NCBI GenBank assembly: GCA_026770025.1
Contig: JAMXDE010000007.1
Location: 2,604,001 to 2,668,000 of the forward strand
From: Craspedostauros australis
Lineage: Eukaryota > Bacillariophyta > Bacillariophyceae > Mastogloiales > Achnanthaceae
Reading direction: 5' to 3'
DNA: 64,000 bases
Both the position numbers and the translations under genes were made by a program. Numbering within the stretch: position 1 is the first letter of the stretch; every line of letters begins with the position of its first letter. Below are positions 29,708-60,947 of this stretch, one piece after another. The notes beneath the pieces are model-generated. The model had not been told where the DNA came from. It made no database searches and saw only the letters and a program-made list of their open reading frames with translations.

Positions 29708-30335
29708 CGTGGTGCGCTGTGCGAGTATGGTACCACTAACGCTGTTGTTGTTGTTGTTGATGATGTTTCTTGTGTCAGTCTGGACGGAAGATCCGAGAAG
29801 GGGATTGTGTTGGTTGTGCAACACGTCACCACCAGTTCCTGTTCCTGTGGATCTTGTGCGCCAACACGATGGGCGAACATGTGGGAGAGCGCATGTGTCA
29901 GCACCGCACTGATGAGAACCTCACCAACCCGAATCCCGAGTTTGCGTGTGGAGGCGTTGCTGTGTGTGGTCGAATTGTGTCATCGTATCTTTGGCTTTGG
30001 ATTCGGAGTCTTGGTTGAACAATTCAGTCACGTATTTCGATTCAATCACGAACCCTACTTCATCTAATCTAGACATGGTTGGCAATGCACGCAGCCATTT
30101 CTTGTGTGCGCGACACTTGGCATCGCCATCCATTTGATTCAACAGGTACTCATGATGAAGAACAGCAGGTGGTGTGAAAGGGTCAACTATTGCATATTCG
30201 TAGTTAGGAAGTATGTGTGGAGGACTGGTCGAGGCGGTGCTACGCTCGTCTATTCCATCTTGTTGCTGCTTCTCTTTCTGTCTTGTGGTTGGGTGCGTGT
30301 GCGTGTGTGATGCTCTGCTGGACGAGTACCGATGC
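29708..30335. other. Intergenic
   Basis: Upstream of the HAD gene (minus) and downstream of the secreted-protein gene copy 1 (minus). From 30235 on it belongs to the duplicated segment. Nothing else supported. Confidence 0.3.
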
Positions 30336-32195
30336 TCAGTTGAATGTGACCTTGCAGTCGCTCACGTTGGCCAGGCGAGGAGATCCACTGTTCTGCATCA
30401 TGAGACACCAAGCGTCCTCCAACATGGACAACACGTCATCATCCATCGGAGGTGGGCTCTTGTTCAGCAACTCAGACTCAGCCTTCTCGGCCTTCTTGTC
30501 GGTCTTCTTGTCAGTCTTCTTGTTGGTCTTCTTGCCGTCAGCCTGAGCGGAAGCATCCGCGCCAAGGTACCAATCATCGTCATCGTTGTAGGCGCTGAAG
30601 CAGTACTCGCACACATAGTCCATGGTGGCCGTGAGATAGAGCTCGCGACCGTATGGGAAAGAGAGAGAACCAGAGGCAGACGCTTTGGGAGCATCAGCAG
30701 TGAAGCCTGCGCCGTCATCACCATCTTCGACGGTCTCGGACTGGATGGAGACGCCATCAACGGCCATCTTGTCTCCCAAAGGCTTCACCTGGTTGTAGGC
30801 CGACACGAAGGTGGCCTGGATGACGCGGTTGTCTCTTGGAGTGAGGGTTCCCTCGATGTTGGAGATGGAGGAGGTGATGCTGGACTCGTACATCTTGCCG
30901 AAGGTCAGGTCTTCGAGGCTCATCTTCTTGTCAGCGTGCTTCTTGGTGGCATGCTTCTTGGTGGCGGTGAGCTTGTCAGCGATGGCGTGGAGGGTGTTGG
31001 TGTCGTCTTGGACGATGCGGAGGTTTGCGGCACTGGCCATGGTGACATGCTCAGCGGCGGCGAGGAGGGTGATGGTGGTGATGGCGGTGGAGAACTTCAT
31101 GGTTGATAGAGCGTTGATAGAGTGTTGGTTGATTGCGTTTCGTACTTGTGCAAGTTTGGTTTTATGAATGGATGAGCTGATGAATGTCGAAGTTGTTGAT
31201 CATGCACTTCGTTACTGCTTCTTGCTCATTGCTCGTTGCTATCATCGTTGCTTTCCTCGTTGGAACTGCTGCAGAGGAATGTGTTGCGAGAGTGCAGAGC
31301 GTTTCTGCGTGATTGCGGCTGATGATCAGGTAATTCTCGCGTGTTCATCGTTGTTTGACCTGCGAGCTACATACTGTGTTGTGATCCTGTGACATTGCAC
31401 TTCGATTGATGGCAAGGTAGTCTTGGTCTTGGTTTGATTTGGTTTGGTTTTGAGAAGGTGCTCAACGTCTGATCCACAAGTCACACATCCGGCAGCTGCC
31501 AATATTGGCGTCATCATCATCGTCGTCTTGGTCTTCTTCACCTTCACCTTCAATGCAAACGTGAATGTGATCGTGAATGATTGTTGGCTGCCTTGGTAGT
31601 CGTGTTGGATGTGGGTCGAGAATGGCACATTCCCATGCATCTGCGTGGCACCTTCTCACACATGCAAGACTTCGTTGAGCCAAAAAATCAACCAATCGAC
31701 CAATGAAACAACCAGCTCTTTCTGTTGGGTGTGTGTTGGGGTTTGAGAAGGTTGCATCTGATAGGCTGATGCAGTCGTCGCATCCTTGTTTCGGTACACA
31801 TCGGTGCGCTCTGGTGAAAGCAACAGATGCAACGGATGTCGCATCGGGTCTCGTCCATGTGCTTGTCTCGCATTCGCCTTCCATCCTTCTCAAAGCATCG
31901 TGCTTCTTATCGCTTATCCTCGTCGTAGTCGTGGTCCATCTCGTTCGTCTCGTGCTCTCGCCTTTTGCCTTCGGTGAAGATGAATCGATCAAATGCCAAC
32001 AAGAATGAACGAAGTACGAAGATGGCGTGGCGTTGCGGGATGGTTTGGTCAGGTCGGACGTTGATCCGATCTGATTTGATCTTCGTGTGGTTGGGAAGGT
32101 GTGTTGTGGTTGGTTGGAATGGTACCTTCTCAAAGCGCGCGCAACGCGTTCGCGTTCTCGTTCTGGTTGTTCGTGGTTCTCGTTCTTGCTGTTTG
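30235..32195. repeat. Segmental duplication, copy 1 (direct repeat with 42279-44233)
   Basis: About 1.96 kb that aligns in the same orientation with 42279-44233. Left boundary at CGGTGCTACGCTCG in both; right boundary near the CTCGTT...TTGCTG motif, after which the sequences differ. The coding part is almost identical (2 differences in 765 bases), while the 1 kb beyond it carries many substitutions and indels. Confidence 0.92.
30336..31100 (-). CDS. Secreted lysine-rich protein of unknown function, copy 1
   Basis: 254 residues. The N-terminus (MKFSTAITTITLLAAAEHVT) is a clear signal peptide, with cleavage likely after about residue 24 (MASA|ANL). A KKH repeat (ATKKHATKKHADKK) lies near 46-59. 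The middle is a Ser/Thr-rich ordered-looking domain with DYVCEYC (C164, C167). A second lysine repeat (KTNKKTDKKTDKKAEKAE) covers 191-208, and the C-terminus has C232 and C249, so two disulfides are possible. I do not recognise the family. Lysine-repeat secreted proteins in diatoms include silaffin-type wall proteins, but this one lacks their Ser-Lys motifs, so a wall role is only a guess. The second copy (42380-43144) differs by one residue, Ala134 to Val. The antisense plus-strand frame is a shadow. Confidence 0.85.
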   Translation of the reverse strand: MKFSTAITTITLLAAAEHVTMASAANLRIVQDDTNTLHAIADKLTATKKHATKKHADKKMSLEDLTFGKMYESSITSSISNIEGTLTPRDNRVIQATFVSAYNQVKPLGDKMAVDGVSIQSETVEDGDDGAGFTADAPKASASGSLSFPYGRELYLTATMDYVCEYCFSAYNDDDDWYLGADASAQADGKKTNKKTDKKTDKKAEKAESELLNKSPPPMDDDVLSMLEDAWCLMMQNSGSPRLANVSDCKVTFN

Positions 32196-42278: not shown

Positions 42279-44233
42279 CGGTGCTACGCTCGTCTATTCC
42301 ATCTTGTTGCTGCTTCTCTTTCTGTCTTGTGGTTGGGTGGGTGCGTGGGTGCGATGCTCTGCTGCACGAGTACCGATGCTCAGTTGAATGTGACCTTGCA
42401 GTCGCTCACGTTGGCCAGGCGAGGAGATCCACTGTTCTGCATCATGAGACACCAAGCGTCCTCCAACATGGACAACACGTCATCATCCATCGGAGGTGGG
42501 CTCTTGTTCAGCAACTCAGACTCAGCCTTCTCGGCCTTCTTGTCGGTCTTCTTGTCAGTCTTCTTGTTGGTCTTCTTGCCGTCAGCCTGAGCGGAAGCAT
42601 CCGCGCCAAGGTACCAATCATCGTCATCGTTGTAGGCGCTGAAGCAGTACTCGCACACATAGTCCATGGTGGCCGTGAGATAGAGCTCGCGACCGTATGG
42701 GAAAGAGAGAGAACCAGAGGCAGACGCTTTGGGAGCGTCAACAGTGAAGCCTGCGCCGTCATCACCATCTTCGACGGTCTCGGACTGGATGGAGACGCCA
42801 TCAACGGCCATCTTGTCTCCCAAAGGCTTCACCTGGTTGTAGGCCGACACGAAGGTGGCCTGGATGACGCGGTTGTCTCTTGGAGTGAGGGTTCCCTCGA
42901 TGTTGGAGATGGAGGAGGTGATGCTGGACTCGTACATCTTGCCGAAGGTCAGGTCTTCGAGGCTCATCTTCTTGTCAGCGTGCTTCTTGGTGGCATGCTT
43001 CTTGGTGGCGGTGAGCTTGTCAGCGATGGCGTGGAGGGTGTTGGTGTCGTCTTGGACGATGCGGAGGTTTGCGGCACTGGCCATGGTGACATGCTCAGCG
43101 GCGGCGAGGAGGGTGATGGTGGTGATGGCGGTGGAGAACTTCATGGTTGATAGAGCGTTGATAGAGTGTTGGTTGATTGCGTTTCGTACTTGTGCAAGTT
43201 TGGTTTTATGAATGGATGAGCTGATGAATGTCGAAGTTGTTGATCATGCACTTCGTTACTGCTTCTTGCTCATTGCTCTTTGCTTTCATCGTTACTTTCA
43301 TCATCGTTGCAACTGCTGCAGAGGAATGTGTTGCGAGAGTGCAGGGCGTTTCTGTGTGATTGCGGCTGAGGCTCAGGTCATTCTCGCGTGTTCATCGTTG
43401 TTTGACCTGCGAGCTACATACTGTGCTGTATTCCTGCGACATCACACTTCGATTGATGGCAAGGTAGTCTTGGTCTTGGTCTTGATTTTGAGAAGGTGCT
43501 CAACGTCTGATCCACAAGTCACGCATCCGACGAACGCCAATATTGGCGTCATCATCGTCGTCGTTGTCTTGGTCTTCTTCACCTTCACCTTCAATGCAAA
43601 CGTGACCGTCACTGTCAACGTGAATGATCGTTGGCTGCCTTGGTAGTCGTGTTGGATGTGGGTTGAGCGTGGTATATTCTCATCCATCTGAGTGGCACCT
43701 TCTCACACATGCAAGACTTCGCTGAGCCAAAAAATCAACCAATTAACCAATGAAACAGCCAGCTCTTTCTGTTGGGTGTGTGTTGATGTTTGAGAAGGTT
43801 GCATCTGATAGGCTGATGCAGTCGTCGCATCCTTGTTTCTGTATACATCGGTGCGCTCTGGTGAAAGCAACAGATGCAACGGATGTCGCATCGGCTCCCG
43901 TCCATGTGCTTGTCTTCCATTCGCCTTCCATCCTTCTCAAAGCATCGTGCTTCTTATCGCGTATCTTCGTCATAGTCGTGGTCCATCTCATGCTCTCGTC
44001 TTTTGCCGTCGGTGAAGATGAATCGATCAAATGCCAACAAGAATGAACGAAGTACTGTGAAGATGGCGTGGCGTTGCGGGATGGTTTGGTCAGGTCGGAC
44101 GTTGACCCGATCTGATTTGATCTTCGTGTGGTCGGGAAGGTGTGCTGTGGTTGGTTGGAATGGTACCTTCTCAAAGCGTGCGCGATGCGTTCGCATTCTC
44201 GTTCTGGTGGTTCGTGGTTCTCGTTTGCTGTTT
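42279..44233. repeat. Segmental duplication, copy 2 (direct repeat with 30235-32195)
   Basis: About 1.95 kb, same orientation as copy 1, offset 12,044 at the left boundary. See copy 1 for boundaries. Several indels distinguish the half beyond the gene. Confidence 0.92.
42380..43144 (-). CDS. Secreted lysine-rich protein of unknown function, copy 2
   Basis: 254 residues, identical to the protein at 30336-31100 except Val134 for Ala; signal peptide, KKH repeats, CEYC, lysine repeat and C-terminal cysteines are all kept. Only two base differences occur in the 765-base frame, one silent. The identical 100 bases upstream of the start suggest both copies are expressed the same way. Near-identity of the coding part against a more diverged flank points to gene conversion or selection on the coding region rather than a uniform recent duplication. 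Confidence 0.85.
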   Translation of the reverse strand: MKFSTAITTITLLAAAEHVTMASAANLRIVQDDTNTLHAIADKLTATKKHATKKHADKKMSLEDLTFGKMYESSITSSISNIEGTLTPRDNRVIQATFVSAYNQVKPLGDKMAVDGVSIQSETVEDGDDGAGFTVDAPKASASGSLSFPYGRELYLTATMDYVCEYCFSAYNDDDDWYLGADASAQADGKKTNKKTDKKTDKKAEKAESELLNKSPPPMDDDVLSMLEDAWCLMMQNSGSPRLANVSDCKVTFN

Positions 44234-47724: not shown

Positions 47725-47730
47725 CATAAG
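47725..47730. repeat. Putative target-site duplication, left (CATAAG)
   Basis: CATAAG lies directly outside the left inverted repeat; the same six bases lie directly outside the right one at 60942-60947. Confidence 0.75.
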
Positions 47731-47770
47731 ACCCCGGTGAGCGAAAAGGTTACGCCCAAGTTGGCGTCGC
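47731..47770 (+). repeat. Terminal inverted repeat, left end of the large transposon
   Basis: 40 bp starting ACCCCGGTGAGCGAAAAGG. The inverse occurs at 60902-60941 with one mismatch (position 37, G against A). Weaker similarity continues about 20 bp inward. Confidence 0.88.
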
Positions 47771-50700
47771 ATCTGCGATCCTGATATAAACTTTAAGAGG
47801 CCTTACCATATACTTACTTTAGATATATGTAGAAGAACTACATTCTTAAAACGTATATTGGATGGGTTAGGAGGTCATGAAGGTACCTATTCTGTCGTGT
47901 TGTATCGTGCATTAGATTCAGTTTTTGGGATGCGACATGGATGCGACTCATCACTGACTCCAAATTTGATGTTGGCGAGCGGCGAAAATGTTCTTTTTTC
48001 CTCTCTCAGACGGACTCACAGCAAGGCACTCGAAGCCGCCCTCAGACGTGTCTACAGTCGTGCAAATGGACCCACATTTCGGCTGTTTTTGGCCCCAATT
48101 GATTGCACGCAGTTTCTCGCGGTGGACTTGGAACAATAGGTGAAGAGCAAAACTGCATCAGAATGTGATGGTACGTGCGTGCACTGCGCCGTACCATACG
48201 ACATTAGGATGGGATGAAGGTGCAGAGCTATCAGCATATTCCACCAGGTATAGTGAGATGCTACTTTTGGTTTTGCTGATGCTGCTAGTACTTCGTGAGC
48301 GCGGCAACTGTGATCAATGGCAGGTTCGGTGTAAAATGATCTCGCGCGTTCCACGTGTGGTCTCTCATTTCATACAAGGGGCACGAGACTCTGTGACAAG
48401 ATAGGTGCAGGAGGATAAGGTTCCCATCCTGCGAAATAAAGTCAGCTGGCGACTACGGCACATTCCTGATGTACGCTGCTGTGCTCTTCTCGAGTTGGTG
48501 AGTTTCCGTTCGTTGCGCCTCTCCTGGAGGATTTGATGTTCGTTGTTGTTGTGGAAGTTTGTGAGCTCATTTTGCTCTTTCCTGGATCATGTTTCATTCC
48601 TTTTCCTGGTTTTGTTCCATGTCGCACCCAAAGAATCGCTCTGTTCTACCTCTGATTTCGGTGGACAGCCAGACGTGAGATGTGGTGTTTTGGTAGAAAC
48701 CTGTGTGGAACAACACCGTTGCGCTCACGGATTCCGGAGTGTTTTGTGTGTGCCAACACACATTCCTCAGAGAATCGTTTCTGGCGCGCCACAAAACTGC
48801 GGAGCGGCTCTGCGAGAACAGAATGATGTACCGCACTGAACACAAGAAGGGGAGTACAGCAGGAGATCATGTAATACATCTGTTTTTTATCGTACATGCC
48901 CACATTTGTATTATTCGCCCATCGGAGGCTGATGAGGTTCGATCTTGTGATGGATCGGTTGACTTCCGCAGAATCAACATTCCACCGTCAATTCCAACCG
49001 TCAACGATGGTGTTGCATTCACAAGGCGCGCTTGGTGGTCAGCGGCGCAGGCAGACTTGGAGTGCGAGGATTGTCAGCATTGTTACCCTCATAAGATAGG
49101 TATGACGATCAGTTCCATGGTGCGTTATCGTCTCCAGAGTTGTTGTGGATCAAAGACAAGGAACAACAACGTGCTGACCGTTTGGACGCTATATTGTGGA
49201 TTGAGTTTAGGGTAAGTGTATTGGTTTGACAGCACCGTTGCATAGAACAACAATTCCTCTTGGTGCTGTGGAAACACAGCTCCAATTTTACTCCAGGCGA
49301 AGACATCGATACCATCGTGTGTCTTTTTTTTGCGCCCATGGATTTGGTATCATCACTCGCTCTCGCTGATCGTCATCATTCTCCGTTGTCTGCTGGGGCC
49401 GTTCGTGGCAGTCTGGGTGGTCACAGAGCAAGCAACAGCCGGCGCCAACCATGAATGGCACTGGCGGTTGATGATTGGTGAACGCTGTTCCACAGGCGGA
49501 TGCGATTTGTTGTCTCCCCCAGCGGTTGTTGGATGAGCGATAGACGAGAAGCTGGTGGTGATCATCTGTACGGAAAGCGTCGGGGCAGATGGATGGGATG
49601 TTCTGAGCAATGAAACAATAGTGCCATACTAACGGATGAGGTAGTGTGGATGAGGCTGAGAGCTTGTTCCGATTTCCTCGCAAGCACAAACATTTTCGAA
49701 TTGATGGCGTGTACTCGTCCTCTCGCCGCGATTGACTTGTGTCCGCGTGCGAGCAAAATGTGAGCCACTGCTCTGCGCCGAGAACTGGTGTCCATTTGCA
49801 AGAGAACTGCGCATCCTGATTCACAAGCCGAGCGACAAATCGCGCACACTCCAGAATACATTCGTGACTTTCCGATACGACATGACACGACATGCCATGC
49901 TACTGATACCAGTACCATACGTATTGGGTAGATCGACGAATGGATGGATGGAGCGAGCTGTGATCATCCCAAGGATACCGTATCGACACACTTGGCGACG
50001 AACCATAGTCGCCGTATTGGTGCCATCGCAGGACATGGTGCAGATGGGTGGAGCAAACGCCGGTACGTGCAGCCACAAATTGCTACACGCAACTGTGAAA
50101 GGGAATGGCGCAAGTCACTGATTAGCCCATGGGCAGAAGGCAGCACTTTTGCCTTGGAGTCAGTCCATTTGTACCAGACAATGTTACCAGCATCATGGAG
50201 ATTGCGTTGTACTTGGAGCAGAGCATTTGGGATCGATCATTCAAGAATCTTATTCCATTCGGCATGCCGCTTGGTGTCGGCGGCGATGGTTTCCTCGTAG
50301 CATTCTGTGGCAATTCTGCAGGTGCCCCTTTGTGCCTACTCTAGCAATCCACTGATTAGATTCTTATCATTGAAAGACAGGTGTGCTCATACACTAGACA
50401 GTGTACGACAGCACCATCATACCCACTCTGGCTTGAACAGGAGTGTGAGAGCCACAACCTGGAGTTGTGCCGTGCCAACTCCTTGTTTGTCTTGGGTCCT
50501 TTGTGTCCAATTTCTGGTTCCCCGATTTTCTCCCAAATCAATCTACTGAATTTTTCAATAGTGGTATACGATGTTGTTGCGTGGGTAGCACAATTGCAAA
50601 CATTACTGCATTCATCCTTTGCACGATCCTCTCCGTTGGATGAACTCCATACCTTGATTTCAACGCTTCCGACATACCCACCCACCAATACAATGCATGC

Positions 50701-52706
50701 GATTCACCCTGTGCTATTTTTAGTTCGGCGCGTTGTGTTGTCGGATTCTCGTTTTCTCTCGTCTTATTTCTCACGATAAAGTTGCAACATCTTCCCCTTT
50801 CCGCTGCGTTCACGGACTCCATCGGTTTCGACAGCCACATGCCTGGACTGGCGTCGTCTTCTTCGCTTTGTCGTCTACTTTGTAGTCGTCCAATTTCATT
50901 TCGCAATTCCGCCTGGTGCTATTCCTATGCCAACAAAAGCATACCTATGTCGGGGATCCCGTGTTATTCCTCGCAATAGAATTTTTGCGCCCTCACCTGA
51001 ACGTTTCCATCACGCATTCTATCAGTTTCGACGTCTGGAGGGACGAACCACTCTCGTCCCCTCCGCCTCATTGTTTACTTTGTAGTCGTCCAATTTTTAT
51101 TTCGCAATTCCGTCTGGTGCTATTTCTATCCCACCAAATCCATACCTATGCAAATTCCTCTCCATCGACATGCACCTTCTGGAGGGCATCGTCAGTGTCA
51201 TGCACGATTGGCGCGATTGAGGTGAGTCTATGCCATTACAGTTGCATCAACCATTCGTATTGCGCAATAATGCATGGTGTCCGGCTGATGGGAAAGGGGA
51301 GGTTGGGCCTGAGCGATCTACACGCTCCGAATTGATGTTGCTCGCAATCCTCTTGCGAGGGCTCCGGGCTCCGGCAGACTGTGTGTTGACTTTCAATTGC
51401 TCGCGGATCCGTGTGGTGTTGGCCTTTTCGAATTCCACCAATGGAAGGAGATGCACATGGAATTGATACAGATGGTTACGCAGGTTTGCGGATGGCCCGG
51501 ATGCTGGAGATGGTGCGGGGCATGATTTCCTACCGCTTGGCATCACGAGGCCAACGACTCAAGCAACAGAATTGACGATCAGCGACGGCAGTGGACAAAT
51601 TGCAGCGGCTCCCGAAATATGTGGAACCACGGACGCGTTCCTGCACCATTGTAATCGCTGCGATTTTGCGGTTCCATCATGGTTCGAAGATCGACTTGGC
51701 GTCGTCTACTTGTCTCATACTCGACAATAGACTGCATCCCTTGGTCGATGCCCGATCCAGTTTTGTTGTCTTGATCGAAAATGTGGGTGTGAAATTGGCG
51801 CACCTCGGTCGAATCTGATTGGATGGGAATCGTCAATGGTTAAGTGCAAATGTCGTTTGTTGCTCGCAAGGACAAACTACATTTAACAAACGAACAACGA
51901 AGAACCAAAGTATGTCCGAAAATCAAGAAAACAACACGACGAGATCACCAATGATGGATTCGTCTACCAACGATCCAGCGTCCCACACCAACCGACAACA
52001 ACAGGCAGGACAGAACGTCTGCCGCAGTGAACTCACATCACACATCACACACCCAACGACTATGCTCTTTCCCATTCACTGCGGATGCTTCAATCGTCGC
52101 ATCTGAGACGATCGGCGCCGACAGCCAACACAACTCCAAATGGCAACCAACGAAGAACAGATCGATTGTATTCAACCGTGTTGCATTCGGCCACCAGGGA
52201 CGTAATCATGATACACACGCGATCGTCTCTCACGATGCCAATGCAAATGATGAGAAATTGAGGCTACAACCGATGAGAATAAAAAGAAAAAATCAATTGA
52301 GAATGAATGGACAGACGGATTGATCTCGCACTCGTTGCTCTCTCTCTCTCTCTTGCACTTGCTCTCTCGTTGTGTTGGTGCTGCGTCACACTCACTCATT
52401 CGCCAAAATAAAAATCGCAAACAGTTGCACATACATTCTCCAATCACAACCACGTATGCACCAATGAGCGACCGTTGAGCTGTTGCCGCCGATCTCCGCA
52501 CAAACACAGCGCTCATGCTGTTGTGAACAAATAGGCATGTGCTGCTTTGGCTTGTTGAGTGTTGTTGTTGCTGTCTGCTGCATTCTCCTATCTGCAATGT
52601 CAGCACAACACTCAGTGCTCCCCAACATCGAGATCATTCAGAATCATCCGTGCCTTCCCCCACCGGCATCATCCATCAGCCACCAAGCCACCACCGCTAT
52701 CGCATC
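47771..52706. other. Left arm of the large transposon, no confident gene
   Basis: About 4.9 kb. A plus-strand frame of 170 codons (48703-49215) contains CVCQHTFLRESFLARHK followed by a Cys, a C2H2-like spacing. On the minus strand, frames at 50538-50906 (LRNEIGRLQSRRQSEEDDA), 51247-51546 and 51579-51836 have protein-like composition and may be exons of a decayed gene; I cannot join them. A direct repeat lies at 50877-51150 and a CT run at about 52340-52354 just before the transposase leader. Nothing else recognised. Confidence 0.35.
50877..51150. repeat. Imperfect direct repeat, two units about 200 bp apart
   Basis: The segment starting ACTTTGTAGTCGTCCAATTT at 50877-50949 recurs at 51077-51150 with about 85-90 percent identity by eye, including the shared end CATACCTATG. 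Weaker similarity upstream of each suggests a tandem unit of about 200 bp. Confidence 0.75.
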
Positions 52707-55700
52707 ATGACTCATCCACGTGAGGATTCAAGCAGCGATCCCAATCCATCCCAATCAAAGGTGCAACGTCGAACAGCAAATGCTGGCACATCCATCCATC
52801 ACCAACCACCTCATGGGCACTACGCATCGTACCAATACTCTGCACCTGTCGGACCGAACCACCATGGCAGCATTCGCAGCCCTCCTCTCCTCATGGTTGC
52901 AAATCATCATGTCCCTCCCAACATACAACCTCCTTCCTTTTGCATCCCCAGCTACATTGGTGCAGGCGTGGGTGGTCTACCATACTCGACTTTCCACCCA
53001 AACAATAGCATGGCAACTCCCACTTCCAACTACATGGGGCCCAACCGTTTTGGCATTATGCCTTGCAAGCAATGTCTGACCCTGTTCTGCAGTCACTGCA
53101 GTAGGCCACCATTTTGCCCAAACTGTGCATCATCCATCGGCGGAGGTGCACGTCATGCAGGTGTGAATGCCTTTGTGCCACAGGCCAATTCGTTCTCTGT
53201 TGGGACTCGTGGTCATGCTGCTGTGCCCACACGCCCCAAGCGCAAATCATCAGCAAACAGACGCAGGACGCCACATCAACAGGCAGGAGATGATGTGCTC
53301 GCGGGACGAGATGTCGCTGTGTCCACGGACGAACGCGAGTCAGATTGTGCGAATACGAACAGTGCCGATGACACTGATGTCGAGTACATTCCAGAAGCAG
53401 AGGATGCTGTAAATAGAAAAGGACTACTCACATCTATCTTCAAATCAGCAGGCATTGACATTCGAGCAATTTCGAAATTCCCTGTGAGTGGATTCAGAAG
53501 CATCCCACCAAGGGGAGCCAAGCATCGCTGGAGTGTCATCAAACGAATCTGGAAAGAGCTGTGTAATGGAACATCCGAGCATGCAATCTTCCCTGGCACG
53601 AAACCCCCACCTCAACTTTGGGAAGCCATGACCTTCGTGCGACATCGCAAACAGCTCCCTCCTGTGTTGCTGGAGCAGACTCTCTGTCATTTAGCCTTCT
53701 GGGGGAATAGGGACCTGTCACTGACTGCTCGTGCGGTTTTGGCAATGACCTGTGACTCCAGGCGCTGCACCCGAATCCTGGCTGTGCACTACAGCAGCCT
53801 GTCGAAAGGAGACAAGGCGAAAGTCATGCCGCAACGCCGAACCATGTCTCGTGCAGCACACAGGAGACTGTTGCACGCTGGTGGTGCGATCCTTGCTGGA
53901 GGCCAGTTCCCACACACAGACTACAAGTACCGTGTCAAGGAATCTAGCCTCCAGGGAGTGATCTCATTTCTCACCTCCATGTTCCAGTACCGACCAGGCA
54001 TCACAAGGAGTGTGAAGTTGGCTGGTGTTCTGTTCCCAGACCTGCCCATCTTCATTCGTGGATCATCATCTATTGCAGAACTCTTTGCGAAGTACAAGAA
54101 TGCAACAGATGACCCAGTCGGTATGCCTGCCTTCAGGAGTATCCTGACATTGCTCACACGACGTGGCAAGTGTCAAACAGGCCTGTCCTCCTTCTACACA
54201 GACACTCTGACTGTATTCATGCACTTCCAACACATGATCAGGAGAGTCATGGAACTGCTTCAGACTCAGAACAAGGAACATCAAGACAAAGAGCTCGTGT
54301 CTGAGCTTCTCAATGAGGCACAGGCCATCATCACGGACAGCGATTCTGTTCTTTCATTTGCAAAATGGGAATACGCAAACAAGCACATCCAGGTGAAGCC
54401 AACCACAGATACTCTACATTCCGCAGAATTTGCACTGACAAATGGCTCCCTCCCATTTGTGAACCAAGCATGCAAGCAATGTGCAGATGTCATGACATTC
54501 TTCCCGATTCGCGTTTGCAACTTCATGCGAACTGCCACCAACAACATCACTGGCAACACGTTCGAATTGGATCGCATGGCTGCAGCAATTAACCTGTGTG
54601 ATGACGCACTGCGCCAGTACATGGCCCACCAAGTGAGACGAAAGGTACAAGCACAGAAGATCAAGGAGGAAAAGGAGCGCCTCAAGGACCACCCAGATCG
54701 CATCATTGCTGTGCTTGATCACAAGCAACGCATCCTCCCAACGGAGAATCAGGAAGCTCAGAAAGCGTTCTTTGGCAAGAATGGAATGTCTCTCCTTGGT
54801 GTCATGACAATCCAATACAAGAATGGCAAGTTCGAGTATCGATTCATTGACATGGTGATGAAGGGGCGGAACAAGCAGGGTCATGTCCAAGTTGCTGGTG
54901 CGATCAAGATTCTTCATTCCACCGTGCTTCCGAAGCTCCACAAGGGGGTCAAAGAGGTTGTATTCCAGAGTGACAATGCCAGTTGCTTTGCAAGTCCGGC
55001 ACTGATGAGGTACATGCATGGACTGAACCAGGGAGAGGTTGAAGTTGAATACATGATGCCGGAGAAGAAGAAGAAGAAGCGGAAGACAACAGCCAAGAAC
55101 AAGGGCAAGCACAAGGACAAGGCTAAATCTCCGCCTGCCCCCCAAATCAACACCGAACAGTCATCTTATCATGACGTGAAGGCTGCATCATCCACGAAGG
55201 CCAAAGCACAGCAAGACACCGGAACCCGCCCTCCCAAACCACGACTCCAAATCATCCAATGGCTGTACACTGAGGCACAAGCTGGCAAGAGTGCTTTGGA
55301 CGGACACTTCGGTTTTGTCTCACGTCAACTCAGGTTGTATGTGGACAGTGCCAGGGACGCAAAGATTGCCACCGAAGGCGATATTTTCACAGTGCTGAAA
55401 GCTGCCAACATCAAGGGGACAACAACACTTCTGTTGGATCTGAGCAGATTGGGACATGCCATCATCTGTGGTGTGGACGGAAAGGAAAAAGCATTCGCGA
55501 CCAACCGAGTTTCCGTTCGCGCCACCCATCAAATTGATCTGATCGATGACAAAATCCAGGTCACAGCATCCTCAGGCTTGACACATCCAGAGACTATCAC
55601 TCAGGGCAAGATCGACAAGTTTGACATTCTCCATCTCGATGTCACTTGCAATGATGAGGACATCACCGAGGTCTCACCGGCATTTGTGATGGATCCACAG

Positions 55701-56357
55701 AATATCCGCGGCTCACAACCGACTGAACGACGACACACATCAACAACAAACAAGAGCACCAACAAGACCGACATGTTCAAGCGCATTCTCACTTCGCGTG
55801 TTCTGGAACCAGCAGCGGCAGCAGCAGAAACGGCAAATTGTGAACGAAATGCCACAGTGGACTTCCCTCAATCCATCAGGCAGGGATGGGCGATCTGTCA
55901 CCCAGACAAAGCCAACTCACGAAAGAAGGACCCATCAGCATCTCCAGCAACCAAGGTACCGTCCATGTCGAAACAAGTGGCGCAGATTGTGTGCGATGCT
56001 GCGATTGCTTGCAGGAACCCAGACACGAGGAGGAGTGCTCATGTGCTTCATGAAGAGCTGATGGCCGGGCCTTTCTTGCTTGATTGGGAGCAGAGGATCA
56101 AGGTGGACATCACATACCTCAAATGCTTCCTGGCAGCTCCTGACGGTCGAGCGGAGAGATACCTGGAGAACAATGGCTTCTTGGATGACGAGGAATGTGA
56201 AGAGCACCTGAACGAGATGCATGAACTGCGGATCATGGCATCCAAGGAGAACACTCAAAGCGAAGAAGCGCACGAAGAGCAGGTTCTGGATGATCGCCCA
56301 TACGATGGGCAGGATGCTGATGTGATTGCTGGCAATCTGCTACCTTCCGATGATTGA
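52707..56357 (+). CDS. Putative DDE-type transposase of the large transposon
   Basis: 1216 residues, no intron, from MTHPREDSSSD; the frame is open 56 codons further upstream but reads as poly-Cys/Leu. Residues 1-110 are Pro/Ser/His-rich. C120-x2-C123-x4-C128-x2-C131-x5-C137-x2-C140 forms a zinc-ribbon-like cluster. A basic/acidic linker and a helical domain of about 400 residues follow. Catalytic-like core: AVLDHKQRILPTENQEAQKA with D671, strands GVMTIQYKNGKFEYRF, VVFQSDNASCFAS with D756, a Lys-rich insert (KKKKKKRKTTAKNKGK region), then WLYTEAQAGKSALDGHFGF with E856 and D865 and a helix ending QLRLYV. Proteins with FGK(K/R)GM..., QSDNA and EAQ-GK--CD motifs occur in many invertebrate and protist genomes as repeated, probably transposon-borne genes; I recall the pattern but not a superfamily name. 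Lies centrally between the inverted repeats. Confidence 0.75.
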   Translation: MTHPREDSSSDPNPSQSKVQRRTANAGTSIHHQPPHGHYASYQYSAPVGPNHHGSIRSPPLLMVANHHVPPNIQPPSFCIPSYIGAGVGGLPYSTFHPNNSMATPTSNYMGPNRFGIMPCKQCLTLFCSHCSRPPFCPNCASSIGGGARHAGVNAFVPQANSFSVGTRGHAAVPTRPKRKSSANRRRTPHQQAGDDVLAGRDVAVSTDERESDCANTNSADDTDVEYIPEAEDAVNRKGLLTSIFKSAGIDIRAISKFPVSGFRSIPPRGAKHRWSVIKRIWKELCNGTSEHAIFPGTKPPPQLWEAMTFVRHRKQLPPVLLEQTLCHLAFWGNRDLSLTARAVLAMTCDSRRCTRILAVHYSSLSKGDKAKVMPQRRTMSRAAHRRLLHAGGAILAGGQFPHTDYKYRVKESSLQGVISFLTSMFQYRPGITRSVKLAGVLFPDLPIFIRGSSSIAELFAKYKNATDDPVGMPAFRSILTLLTRRGKCQTGLSSFYTDTLTVFMHFQHMIRRVMELLQTQNKEHQDKELVSELLNEAQAIITDSDSVLSFAKWEYANKHIQVKPTTDTLHSAEFALTNGSLPFVNQACKQCADVMTFFPIRVCNFMRTATNNITGNTFELDRMAAAINLCDDALRQYMAHQVRRKVQAQKIKEEKERLKDHPDRIIAVLDHKQRILPTENQEAQKAFFGKNGMSLLGVMTIQYKNGKFEYRFIDMVMKGRNKQGHVQVAGAIKILHSTVLPKLHKGVKEVVFQSDNASCFASPALMRYMHGLNQGEVEVEYMMPEKKKKKRKTTAKNKGKHKDKAKSPPAPQINTEQSSYHDVKAASSTKAKAQQDTGTRPPKPRLQIIQWLYTEAQAGKSALDGHFGFVSRQLRLYVDSARDAKIATEGDIFTVLKAANIKGTTTLLLDLSRLGHAIICGVDGKEKAFATNRVSVRATHQIDLIDDKIQVTASSGLTHPETITQGKIDKFDILHLDVTCNDEDITEVSPAFVMDPQNIRGSQPTERRHTSTTNKSTNKTDMFKRILTSRVLEPAAAAAETANCERNATVDFPQSIRQGWAICHPDKANSRKKDPSASPATKVPSMSKQVAQIVCDAAIACRNPDTRRSAHVLHEELMAGPFLLDWEQRIKVDITYLKCFLAAPDGRAERYLENNGFLDDEECEEHLNEMHELRIMASKENTQSEEAHEEQVLDDRPYDGQDADVIAGNLLPSDD

Positions 56358-56669
56358 TCCTGACGACAACCGCAAGTAAGCCAACACTACTCACATGCAT
56401 TCATTGATATAGTATTAGTCTATGTAACATTGATATCATTAACTCTCATTGTGACGATATCAACTGCAGTAGCCGCATGTCCACAGGGATTCTGAGAGGA
56501 AGTTGTTGTTGGTATGTATAGAGTGGTTCTAATATTATTGGTTGCTACGATCTTGACATGCACTATGGAACCTCCATCGCCGTGCATCTACTCAATTTGC
56601 ACATGTGCTTGCTATGTATGGTATGATACACGATTAGACCACGGCGTGCATCAATCCAAATCCAGTCCA
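56358..56669. other. Spacer between transposase and oligopeptidase remnant
   Basis: 312 bp, AT-richer than the coding regions, between convergent 3' ends. No feature recognised. Confidence 0.3.
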
Positions 56670-59490
56670 TTACTCGTCAGCTGACTTTTTGGCATTCTTC
56701 GACAACGTCATGAACATGAAATCGTACGCCAGCGCAGTCATGAAGGCGTCCTGCTTCGGCGTTGCATGCAGATCGTTCCCGCCCTCCACATTCTCATCGT
56801 ATTATGACAGCCATCGTTTTCCCTGAACCAGGCTCCACAGCTTCTTCACCATCTTGAGCGCATGCGCTGGGTTATCCGATCATCGTTCGTGTGAAAGCGA
56901 ATAGGATTGGTAGAAAATTTGGATCCTATTTGATGTTGTGGTACGGCGAGATCTACTTCACGAGCACCTCCAATCGGACGCGTCCGGATCCAAATTCGTC
57001 GCACATATAGGTGCATCGTCCGAATGCAGATCTTTGACTGCTTGACGACACGGATCGAGACTGCCCAACGCACCGCGCTGAACAGTCCAGGAGCATCACA
57101 AAATCATTCGCACCAACAATCCTCTGCCGGATCCCCGTGGATGGCCAATGTCTTGGCTTTTCATACTTCGACGAAATCAAATCCTCAGCAACTGCGATGA
57201 AGTCTTCGTGTGGTTTGGCACGCTTTTCACGCACCGCGGCCTCCAGCAAGACGATATTGCAGCAATTCAGACGGATGGTTCGAGTGGAGTCCATTATTCG
57301 GGATGAGAGTGTGTGCGTATAGTACCACAGAATGGGTGCAGTGAGTATCATACCATGCCATACCAATGAGACAATGATTCGATTGTGAGTATGATGTGAA
57401 TTGAAGCAGGAATGCGAATGGAATAGAATCAAGGAATCAATGACATGTTCCCACAAGCTCTGAAAGTCGTACTCCTTCAATGCGCCTGTTTTGTGCACGC
57501 TTTCCATTCCTGATTTTTGGATCTGCTCTTCGCCGCGCACATGCCAGGTGCAAATGCGCAAGTGTACAACACGACCATACACAGCAGCAGCAACATCAAC
57601 AACACTTGTCACTCACCTGATGCCAGCCTGGACCGAATTCTCCGCCACCGCACATGTTGGTTTCCGCGCAGACGCCGCCACATTCCAACCATGCCAGACC
57701 TGTTGCAGGTTGTAATGCGGACCGACACGACCTCAAAGGCACCATAGGCGTAGAGCAAGGTGGGTCTGCTTGTTAGTGGGGACGCCTCTTCGACATGATG
57801 ATGTGCAGAGCATCAGTGCCGTCCTTGCTTTCTGCGATGCGTTGCATGACGTCCACACCTTTCGAATCGAATTGACTCGGTAGCGATTTGAGCTTGCTGC
57901 CAAGGTGGACCTCTGGATCAACCCGCTTCATCATCTTCTCGTCTTCGCCATCAAACACGGATGCATCGCCAAGCCACAGCATGGTTGGTTCTGTGTAGCT
58001 GGTGGTCGTGATCCAGAATCGATCGCTCTCATAGGGATGCGCAGATCGAACGCTGGCGGAGGCGATTCGGGGTTGCTTATCGCCTCCCACCAAACGCAGC
58101 TTGTTAGCCTCTTCCTCCAATTGATAGAACTCCAGCTTCAATCTGACGTTACCAATGAGCAAGAGGATGAGGTGGTTCTTTGTGATGGTGTAGTTTTTTC
58201 GGAGGAGGTAGTCGGAGGGTTTGAAGAGGGTATAATATATCCGATCGGCTGGTCCATACTGACGAATTTGTGCGCATTGACGTAGATGATGGATCCAGCC
58301 TTGAATTCCTTGGCACCCTCAGGTGACCAGTTGGATTGCAAAGGGATCATGAGAACGGTGCCACCGAAATCGATATCCGAATCTTCTGGTGCAAGCCAGG
58401 GTTTGAAATCCGGCGGATCTCCTGTCTCGATTCTGGTATGTTGTCTGGGCGGCAGCATGTGCTTGTACTTGACCTTCCATATCCAGAATTCGGTGGTCTG
58501 GTGGGTGATGGCTCTCGTGCGGATTTCGTAAATGCCCCTGCCGCGCACCCTCTGATCGTCAACGTCGGCGGAGACCGCGATGTCGGATTTTTCACCTTCG
58601 AAGACCACGAGAGCCGATGCCAGATCCGTGCCTCTGACCCACTCGCGGATCGTCCCGGAGCATCCCGCCTTTGTGAGAGACGAAGGACCAAAATCCGCTG
58701 CGGCCAGGAGGATGTTCCTTGTTTTGTAGCAGGCTCTGGTCTTATCCTCTGGTATTGAGAATGGCCTGTCGGTGACGAATGCGGATTTGGCGAGATCGAA
58801 TTCCCTAACGACGACGGAGTCCGTGCTGCCCCGCGACAATCTGAGAAGTGCACGGGTGATGAGCTTGCCGTCTTGCGACATTGGATCTCTCGCTCTGGGC
58901 AGCACCCAACTTCCCTTCCATGTCCATGGCATCTTCTCCTTTCTGGCAGGGTTGTCCAGATCCAGCGCCTTGATCCATTTGGGGTTGCTGGTCTGTTACG
59001 ATGCCAACGTCGTTTTGCACCAGATGCCTTTTTCGATTCTGCAGTGTTTGGAGTGTGAACAATGTCGATGTGGATGCAGGATTGTTGGTTGGAAGGATGA
59101 CGCGAACAGTGAAGGAAGACAACAGAATATGAGAATAATATGTGAGAATAGAATGCAATGTTGTTCTGTGTGTGAGGAGCGCGATGCATACCATGGAATA
59201 CTTGCAGAGCTTCTTCAGCTCATTCGTGCAGTGTATTGCACATTGTACGTACCTTGGAATCCTTCCACAGATTGAAGAGCATGTCATTGCCTGCTACATC
59301 TGTCCCCATCTTGCTGACGAAGGGTATGTCGTCATCCGCCTCAAGGACGTCGACGACGCACTTTTAGGATCTGGTCTTGGACTTGGTGCGATCGCCGAGC
59401 GTGTTGAGGCACATCTCGTTGGCCTTGGAGACAAAGTTTGGGGGACTTGCTGTCCACATCCTCCAACGAGGCGTAGGAATCGTCCGCCAT
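56670..59490 (-). pseudogene. Prolyl oligopeptidase (S9A family) pseudogene, three recognisable exons
   Basis: On the minus strand S9A prolyl-oligopeptidase sequence is spread over frames and exons in the right order. Exon 1 (59490-59253): MADDSYASLEDVDSKSP, then IPFVSKMGTDVAGN and LFNLWKDSK, ending at GTACGT. Exon 2 (59038-57617): KGIWCKTTLAS, NPKWIKALDLDNPARKEK, the long clean stretch LLRLSRGSTDSVVVREFDL to AGSIIYVNAHKFV, LKSLPSQFDSKGVDV, PTLLYAYGAFE, and GGGEFGPGWHQ, ending at GTGAGT. Exon 3 (57240-56670): AAVREKRAKPHEDFIAVAEDL, a degraded nucleophile region (G-S-G-R-G where family members have G-S-N-G-G), NDDR (catalytic Asp region) and NVEGGNDLHATPKQDAFMTALAYDFM, where the usual catalytic His is absent. 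At least four frame changes, internal stops (one TAC-to-TAA type near 58997, one in exon 1 near 59362) and a shortened exon 3 show it is dead. The family is common in bacteria and in some protists. Confidence 0.85.
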
Positions 59491-60254
59491 GTTGCTTCTC
59501 TTTGCGTTGTGATGCGCTATGATGCGTTGTGATGCGTTGGAATTGTCACGGTCGCACAAGCAGGAATGAGTGACCGTAACGGTACAACCCACCAACTGAA
59601 CACGAGCGGCGATCGGTCAATTGATCGAAGCGATGAGAGATGCCAGTTGGGCGTGGGATGAAGCACTTCAGAAGATGAACGTGCTTGTGCATGATGCTCT
59701 TGATTGAAAAAAAGATGATGGCGAGCGAGTATGGTACTCGTGCGGTTGCCAAGCGATGCCGATGGAAATGGAAATGGCAATGGTAATGATGCGAAGCGAC
59801 GCGACGCGACGCGATGTTTCCCACCAGTCAACACAGGGCCCCTTTCGTCTCTTGTGTTGACTTGTTTCTTGTCTTTGTTTGTCCAAGTCTGTCTCTTTGG
59901 ATGGCTCGTGCGTTGAGATTCTCAACGAAGCCTTCGAGCCAACGTGCCAGGTTTTACTCAGCAGATATGACGTCTGTCCGGATACCAGGGTCACAATCGA
60001 CAATATTGATTACTTTTCATTGGCGCCAAAGAGTTCAAAGGGCGTTCTGGAGGATACCTCCGACGAAACAAACTGTAAAAATTGTGAAATCGAATCAAAA
60101 ACGCTGGAACGGCGGCCGTTGAACTGGATCGAAACAGTGCGGGAAGCAAAAAAGTGGGAGAAAAGCAAGAGTTCCGGACAAGGGCAACACCAGAGCGACG
60201 GAGGAGGTAACTGTGTGCAGATGACGTTGTTCAGACAGAGTCACGAGGTTGCTC
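59491..60254. other. Right part of the large transposon, one small open frame
   Basis: Upstream of the oligopeptidase remnant. A 127-codon plus-strand frame (59879-60262) has protein-like composition (for example EILNEAFEPTCQVLLSRYD, CKNCEIESKTLERR) but no recognisable domain, so a gene is possible but not called. A GCGACGCGACGCGACGC repeat lies near 59796-59812. Confidence 0.35.
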
Positions 60255-60306
60255 AGGGTTAGAGTTAGGGCTGGGGTTCTGGCTTGGGTTAGGGTTAGGG
60301 TTGGAG
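60255..60306 (+). repeat. Interstitial telomere-like (TTAGGG) tract
   Basis: Degenerate GGGTTAG units with two perfect consecutive TTAGGG repeats at about 60288-60300. TTAGGG is the telomere repeat reported for diatoms. It sits inside the large transposon, 0.6 kb from its right end. Confidence 0.8.
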
Positions 60307-60901
60307 ATGTGTGGGTTGGGGTTGCCACTGCCTACAGGACTGTGGCGAGGGTGCTGTCCATTTCCATCTTGGCACCAGCAATTCACATCGTCCAATTCAG
60401 CGCTGCGCAACTTGCATCGTATGCGTCTCATGCATTGCAGCCTGTGCATCCCCCTTGCTACCACTCTGACATAACAGACAGGAGGAAGAGGAACAAGGAC
60501 CGTGCCTACCATCCTGGTTGACGGCCCATGGCACATCGCCCTGCATCACATTACATCACAATACATCACATCACTCTCCACACAACAAGAGTTTTGTGTT
60601 CACACCAACGATTCTGTGCGAGCACAAGGTAGAGTCACTCTCCATAAATTTGAGAATCGCGAACAAGGCCCAAACGACGGAAGAAAAAAGAACGTTATGG
60701 GACGAATGACCACTGCGACTCAATTGAAGCGCCAACGAGCACCGTCGCGTCTGTGCGTTATTCACCTAATAGGTAGATTTACCATGAGTTTTAGCCCTCC
60801 ATAACTCTTAAAATATAACGCCTTCAAGAGGTATAAGGTGTTCAATAGAAACCTAACATTGATTGTAAGAGATATATGCAATTTGATACCCGATCCGTGC
60901 T
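60307..60901. other. Right end of the large transposon, no gene
   Basis: Contains ATTACATCACAATACATCACATCAC-type repeats near 60548-60575. Only short frames without recognisable content, up to the right inverted repeat. Confidence 0.3.
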
Positions 60902-60941
60902 GCGATGCCAACTTGGGCGTAACCTTTTCGCTCACCGGGGT
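60902..60941 (-). repeat. Terminal inverted repeat, right end of the large transposon
   Basis: Inverse of 47731-47770 with one mismatch, ending CACCGGGGT at 60941. Confidence 0.88.
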
Positions 60942-60947
60942 CATAAG
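60942..60947. repeat. Putative target-site duplication, right (CATAAG)
   Basis: Immediately outside the right inverted repeat; matches 47725-47730 exactly. Confidence 0.75.

Follow-up and report, generated by a model that had tools for sequence, protein, structure and literature searches.

A 13.2-kb, probable cut-and-paste transposon with a predicted DDD transposase, 4-bp target-site duplications and a decayed peptidase-type gene in Craspedostauros australis

We analysed a window of 64,000 nucleotides from the diatom Craspedostauros australis (contig JAMXDE010000007.1, positions 2,604,001 to 2,668,000), lying on contig C5 of the 74.8-Mb, 90-contig genome that we searched, and identified within it an element of 13,213 bp with true ends at 47730 and 60942. 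With a probability of about 0.92, this is an autonomous class II cut-and-paste transposon, with a DDD transposase, GACCC-type ends, a 4-bp target-site duplication (TSD) and captured, decayed cargo. The ends, the duplications, the copies, an intact and selected transposase frame, and the resemblance between the cargo and a host gene were all observed directly. The features of the element, including its terminal inverted repeats (TIRs), are as follows, with the basis of each in brackets.

47726-47729, no strand: left TSD, ATAA (printed ends, TSD table).
47730-47770, plus strand: left TIR, starting GACCCCGGTGAG (printed ends, repeat pairing, genome TIR pattern).
47771-52706, no strand: left region without a convincing gene (codon-substitution scan, genome matches).
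50854-51150, no strand: two diverged copies (81-88%) of a stretch of about 100 bp, 200 bp apart (direct repeats D1 and D2).
52707-56357, plus strand: putative transposase gene of 1216 codons from the first in-frame ATG, in a frame open from 52527 (open reading frame, conservation, copies, fold).
56559-59928, minus strand: decayed copy, putatively captured, of a prolyl oligopeptidase (S9) type host gene (frames, alignment to the host locus).
60902-60942, minus strand: right TIR, with the plus-strand end CACCGGGGTC (printed ends, repeat pairing, genome TIR pattern).
60943-60946, no strand: right TSD, ATAA (printed ends, TSD table).

Comparison of the printed ends located ACCCCGGTGAGCG... in two inverted copies, at 47731-47770 and 60902-60941, which are identical at 39 of 40 positions, as the original prediction had described. 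The repeat extends to 41 bp and starts with GACCC, GACCCCGGTGAGCGAAAAGG... beginning at 47730 and its inverse terminating at 60942. Because the terminal G (left) and C (right) are counted into the inverted repeat, the TSD is ATAA, and the six-base CATAAG duplication initially proposed was wrong: at either end, one of its outer bases is the terminus of the inverted repeat (the G at the left end, the C at the right end), while its second outer base belongs to the host. We examined both ends in 32 pairs, comprising nine of the element's own subfamily (this element included), eight of a sister type, and 15 via short flanks. An exact 4-bp TSD was identified in 29 of these (ATAA/TTAT in 19, TTAA in five, TTAC in three and ATAT in two), and when oriented as TTAN all 29 have T and A at positions 2 and 3, with T at position 1 in 27. 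A six-base TSD is ruled out by these 4-bp duplications; a six-base appearance was seen in 4/32 pairs, this element included, with approximately two expected by chance among the 29. The element terminus is 5'-GA in the ends read, although the script behind the TSD table looked for GACCC and so provides no independent test of this.

A search of the genome with the TIR pattern, allowing up to three mismatches, bore out the expectation of further copies: it returned 65 ends, 10 of the same subfamily and 55 of the sister type (GACCCGCCTGAG...), compared with none for a reversed control pattern. This occurrence is far beyond chance; derivatives with more diverged ends escape the pattern. The ends form 27 convergent pairs (C59b included), 18 of them 12.9-14.3 kb and nine 20-46 kb long, with 11 ends lacking a partner and no pair among the 27 being shorter than 12.9 kb. 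Two of the longer pairs, C13 and C6, were fetched whole, and both contain insertions. We additionally identified, via similarity searches, five pairs with other end variants (C1, C8c, C2a, C2e and C61). Eight other copies of the subfamily are 87-99% identical to this element in blocks of at least 500 bp, with 99.2-99.4% for the C8 copy. Each of the loci read is set in flanking sequence of its own, and this, together with the 4-bp duplication in 29 of the 32 pairs, makes a spread by dispersed or segmental duplication rather than transposition barely credible, notwithstanding an inverted duplication around a copy on contig C59.

On contig C59 itself (G000:C59:53300-114530; L054-L056, L083 and L084), a second end lies only 4 bp past a copy. 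In the pair C59b, the 812 bp beyond the far end are the exact inverse (812/812 bp) of those that flank the neighbouring copy. This large inverted duplication reflects either an aberrant transposition or an assembly palindrome.

The prediction of an intact 1216-codon gene with transposase-like features was confirmed as regards the open frame, and the protein (P0001) has a predicted DDD-transposase fold. The frame is intact and selected. P0001 matches at least 37 places in the genome, and 21 of the matches start no later than residue 48 and reach the end of the protein; of these, 16 are free of stops and five have one TGA. Substitutions between the gene copies are concentrated at third positions, and the omega-like ratio of the gene, a simple count and not a likelihood estimate, is 0.30, with off-gene frames at 0.41 or above among the 30 lowest listed; some antisense frames inside the gene score lower.

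P0001 has no match in Pfam or NCBIfam, nor a meaningful one among PDB sequences, and the earlier statement that no superfamily could be named still holds after these searches, Sola standing outside that comparison. One relative was recovered by the first protein search and 24 after searches started from relatives, one of which is a named NCBI record from the diatom Thalassiosira exigua, the others being jgi, ena or lgn records. Across the 25 aligned sequences, D812, A814, K917, L920, D921 and F924 (P0001 numbering) are invariant. The interval between D812 and D921 is 40 residues in 21 of the 25, 46-48 in three, and 108 in P0001, where it carries a lysine-rich insertion. On the predicted fold, the protein has an RNase-H-fold catalytic domain with three acidic residues, and from this fold and the conservation we propose D727, D812 and D921 as the putative catalytic triad; the fold assignment rests on a second look by VIA, combined with the order in which strands and helices follow one another. 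At E <= 0.001, the only Pfam models matched by the 25 sequences were SAP (in nine), HMG-box (in one) and DUF7258, with no transposase model in any of the 25, nor in four proteins of other families of this genome. The presence of SAP or HMG-box domains in some relatives, among them P0005, P0006, P0009 and P0010, suggests that DNA-binding parts have been swapped among the relatives.

We identified further families of this lineage in the same genome. With P0007 as the query, 34 places were found, five within P0001-type genes and 29 outside them, and 24 of the latter have open frames of at least 1000 amino acids (aa). Six of the 29 loci were fetched (L085 to L090). L085, L086 and L087 contain elements of 6.0-6.1 kb with inverted repeats of 149-164 bp, their proteins being 99.9% identical between L085 and L086, and 80-81% identical to these in L087. 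L086 and L087 have GA[CG]CC ends and 4-bp TSDs, ATAT and TTAG, and the L086 protein and P0001 share 32% identity across 577 residues. The L088 and L089 proteins (contigs C52 and C14) are 97% identical to one another, L089 having G in place of the third aspartate of L088, and their common DNA stops near the gene end with no inverted repeat; the L090 protein (contig C2) is 42% identical to P0001 over 534 residues. By sequence, the P0001 lineage thus comprises at least four families in this genome, and its simpler form is apparently an element of 6 kb that has a single long gene. We note separately that L088, L089 and L090 encode open transposase relatives of 1020-1124 aa, and that repeated blocks of approximately 570-790 bp lie upstream of L088 and L089.

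The many related transposase genes in the genome would fit a reading in which this element is moved in trans by the transposase of another, with its 1216-aa protein as a passenger. We consider this very improbable, as the frame is selected and is stop-free in 16 of 21 long copies, and as no long gene other than a relative was found in an element of 6.1 kb whose ends are similar.

Several observations weigh against an autonomous DDD transposon. A matching 4-bp TSD is missing in three of the 32 end pairs: C13 has ATAA versus TTAA, in a copy containing two large insertions; C2c has the apparent end of another copy directly outside its left end; and C59b is probably not a true pair. No empty site for this insertion, a check suggested with the original prediction, was found in the assembly, where the joined flanks matched only the element's own two flanks. 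Among the related families, L085 is adjoined by another repeat copy and has no TSD, and in the 8.5-9 kb fetched for each of L088, L089 and L090 there were no TIRs better than in shuffled sequence. For the transposase, D727 is aligned in 17 of the 25 sequences and falls in a gap in the other eight, and a Foldseek search of the PDB gave no match at E <= 0.001.

The multiple dispersed copies with TIRs and the TSD of fixed length are those of a cut-and-paste DDE/D element. Kolobok, piggyBac and Polinton are each contradicted by at least one feature that defines them. Except for the six-base duplication, the original prediction of a DNA transposon carrying a transposase between inverted ends is supported by the many copies, which have flanks and TSDs of their own, and by the predicted DDD-transposase fold. 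For piggyBac, which has a transposase domain in Pfam, TTAA accounts for only 5/29 TSDs, and neither P0001 nor the 25 relatives matched such a model. Polinton/Maverick elements have a 6-bp TSD and genes for DNA polymerase B, retroviral-type integrase and capsid, whereas here the TSD is 4 bp and no Pfam match was found in the 19 element frames scanned, some short frames being outside this set. The same scan argues against a viral element, with only weak PHROGs matches (E 0.084 and 0.028) and nothing at E <= 0.001 when the fold was searched against BFVD; four scans of viral contigs with short patterns (one to six per scan, in two of the scans mostly outside the core) yielded no confirmed relative. 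The Mos1 mariner transposase and retroviral integrases are alike in structure only, with approximately 16% identity across the core that aligns. Among the Mos1 chains listed, the longest have 335-342 aa versus 1216 aa here, and the TSD of mariner elements is the dinucleotide TA versus 4 bp here. A divergent Kolobok would share the TSD of 4 bp related to TTAA, and the 5'-GA termini agree with the 5'-RR rule given in sections of PMC9587614. However, the TSDs are not confined to TTAA (five of 29), and the C/DxxH signature between the second aspartate and the last acidic residue is present in none of the 25 sequences over the homologous interval, taking D921 as the third residue, making this assignment improbable.

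The superfamily itself is left open by the cut-and-paste explanation. Sola transposons also have 4-bp TSDs, and a new family within this superfamily, for example of the giant Sola-1 type, is compatible with that explanation and a genuine possibility at slightly under even odds, the comparison being one of TSD length. Consistent with it are the transposase relative in the diatom T. exigua and the DUF6824 genes in the window (see below). Giant Sola-1, KDZ and EnSpm elements are reported for a stramenopile in sections of PMC12477816, among them Sola1-1_Ec32 of the brown alga Ectocarpus, a giant DNA transposon of 21.5 kb with an extra gene. Our element resembles it as a giant DNA transposon with an extra gene in a stramenopile, but the accessory gene of the Ectocarpus element encodes a ParB-like/DNA methyltransferase protein, and here the gene is a decayed one of the S9 peptidase type.

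Eukaryotic DNA transposons fall into approximately 20 superfamilies (as given in part of PMC9587614). Tentatively, and at well under even odds, with Sola compared by TSD length only, this lineage could be an undescribed superfamily of eukaryotic DDD transposons with GA[CG]CC ends and TTAN-like 4-bp targets. It would be defined by a core of D-[GN]-A-x-C/T-[FY] ... GK/NK[ST]xLD, with approximately 40 residues between the last two aspartates, would have SAP or HMG DNA-binding domains joined to the transposase in some members, and would occur in environmental collections and a diatom, with one of its at least four families in this genome having grown to 13 kb via host-gene capture. The family was not found in the literature searched, which takes in neither Repbase nor most subscription journals; three papers on insect transposons contain the string DD40D.

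Under the mechanism that we propose, the 1216-aa protein would be a DDD transposase with an RNase-H fold. It would bind specifically to the inverted ends of GACCC type, excise the element, and insert it at TTAT-like sites opened by a 4-bp staggered cut, from which the ATAA/TTAT duplications would arise. A prolyl-oligopeptidase-type gene of the host, together with its intron and upstream DNA, would have been captured by an ancestor of the family, and this cargo would have decayed since. We infer the excision chemistry and the present activity of the element.

The cargo consists of minus-strand frames at 56.6-59.3 kb similar to a host locus on contig C12, whose second exon matches Peptidase_S9 (E 2.8e-25) and whose first exon has weak matches to the S9 propeller and catalytic models, under their curated cut-offs. 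The alignment of the two covers 56559-59928 and falls into four pieces (81-89% identity), of which the longest has 3081 columns (83.8%); it takes in the intron and part of the upstream DNA. Outside it, only two stretches of approximately 30 bp match in the 5.5 kb read. The cargo frames are broken in this element, and the copies carry stops (four in the longest piece). As the strongest coding signal outside the transposase gene lies in the cargo (58816-58935; 16 synonymous versus seven non-synonymous changes), the cargo may have been selected during part of its history, and was perhaps functional in the element for a time. The gene piece is found in copies of both subfamilies, indicating that its capture probably predates their split. 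The host locus has long open frames and no TIR, from which we infer the direction of capture, host to element; its route is likewise putative. Pack-MULE-type elements, as named in a section of PMC12477816, likewise carry captured host genes, here one with its intron, but in this case an intact transposase gene is kept, and the same captured gene is present in both subfamilies. A second, more distant host gene of the prolyl-oligopeptidase type was noted at G000:C3:1276599 (47% identity, 672-aa frame).

The unusual size of the element is due in part to this captured gene (3.4 kb) and to the 4.9-kb left region (47.8-52.7 kb), in which a codon-substitution scan gave no convincing reading frame; the related family described above measures only 6.0-6.1 kb. 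Within the left region, 49200-51800 matches 45 genome places at 93% or above, including sister-subfamily copies with different ends. Between copies of the same subfamily, changes per site are 0.107 in the left region and 0.107 in the transposase gene, compared with 0.159 in the cargo and 0.191 in the 3' flank of the gene. The low divergence of the left region could be due to gene conversion, to a role in regulation or to an RNA encoded there.

Elsewhere in the window, two genes carry DUF6824, a diatom/stramenopile domain, and nearly identical plus-strand frames of 297 and 289 aa lie 12 kb apart at 30213-31106 and 42281-43150, as a local duplication.

Our data point to an apparently recently active transposon lineage of several families with no Pfam model, which would be missed by domain-based annotation, its proteins of 1000-1400 aa being listed as hypothetical genes. 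They additionally present an element that seems to have captured a host gene with its intron while keeping its own transposase, and that has no short derivatives among 27 TIR pairs. Thus, how large transposons capture genes and control their size may be testable in a microbial eukaryote.
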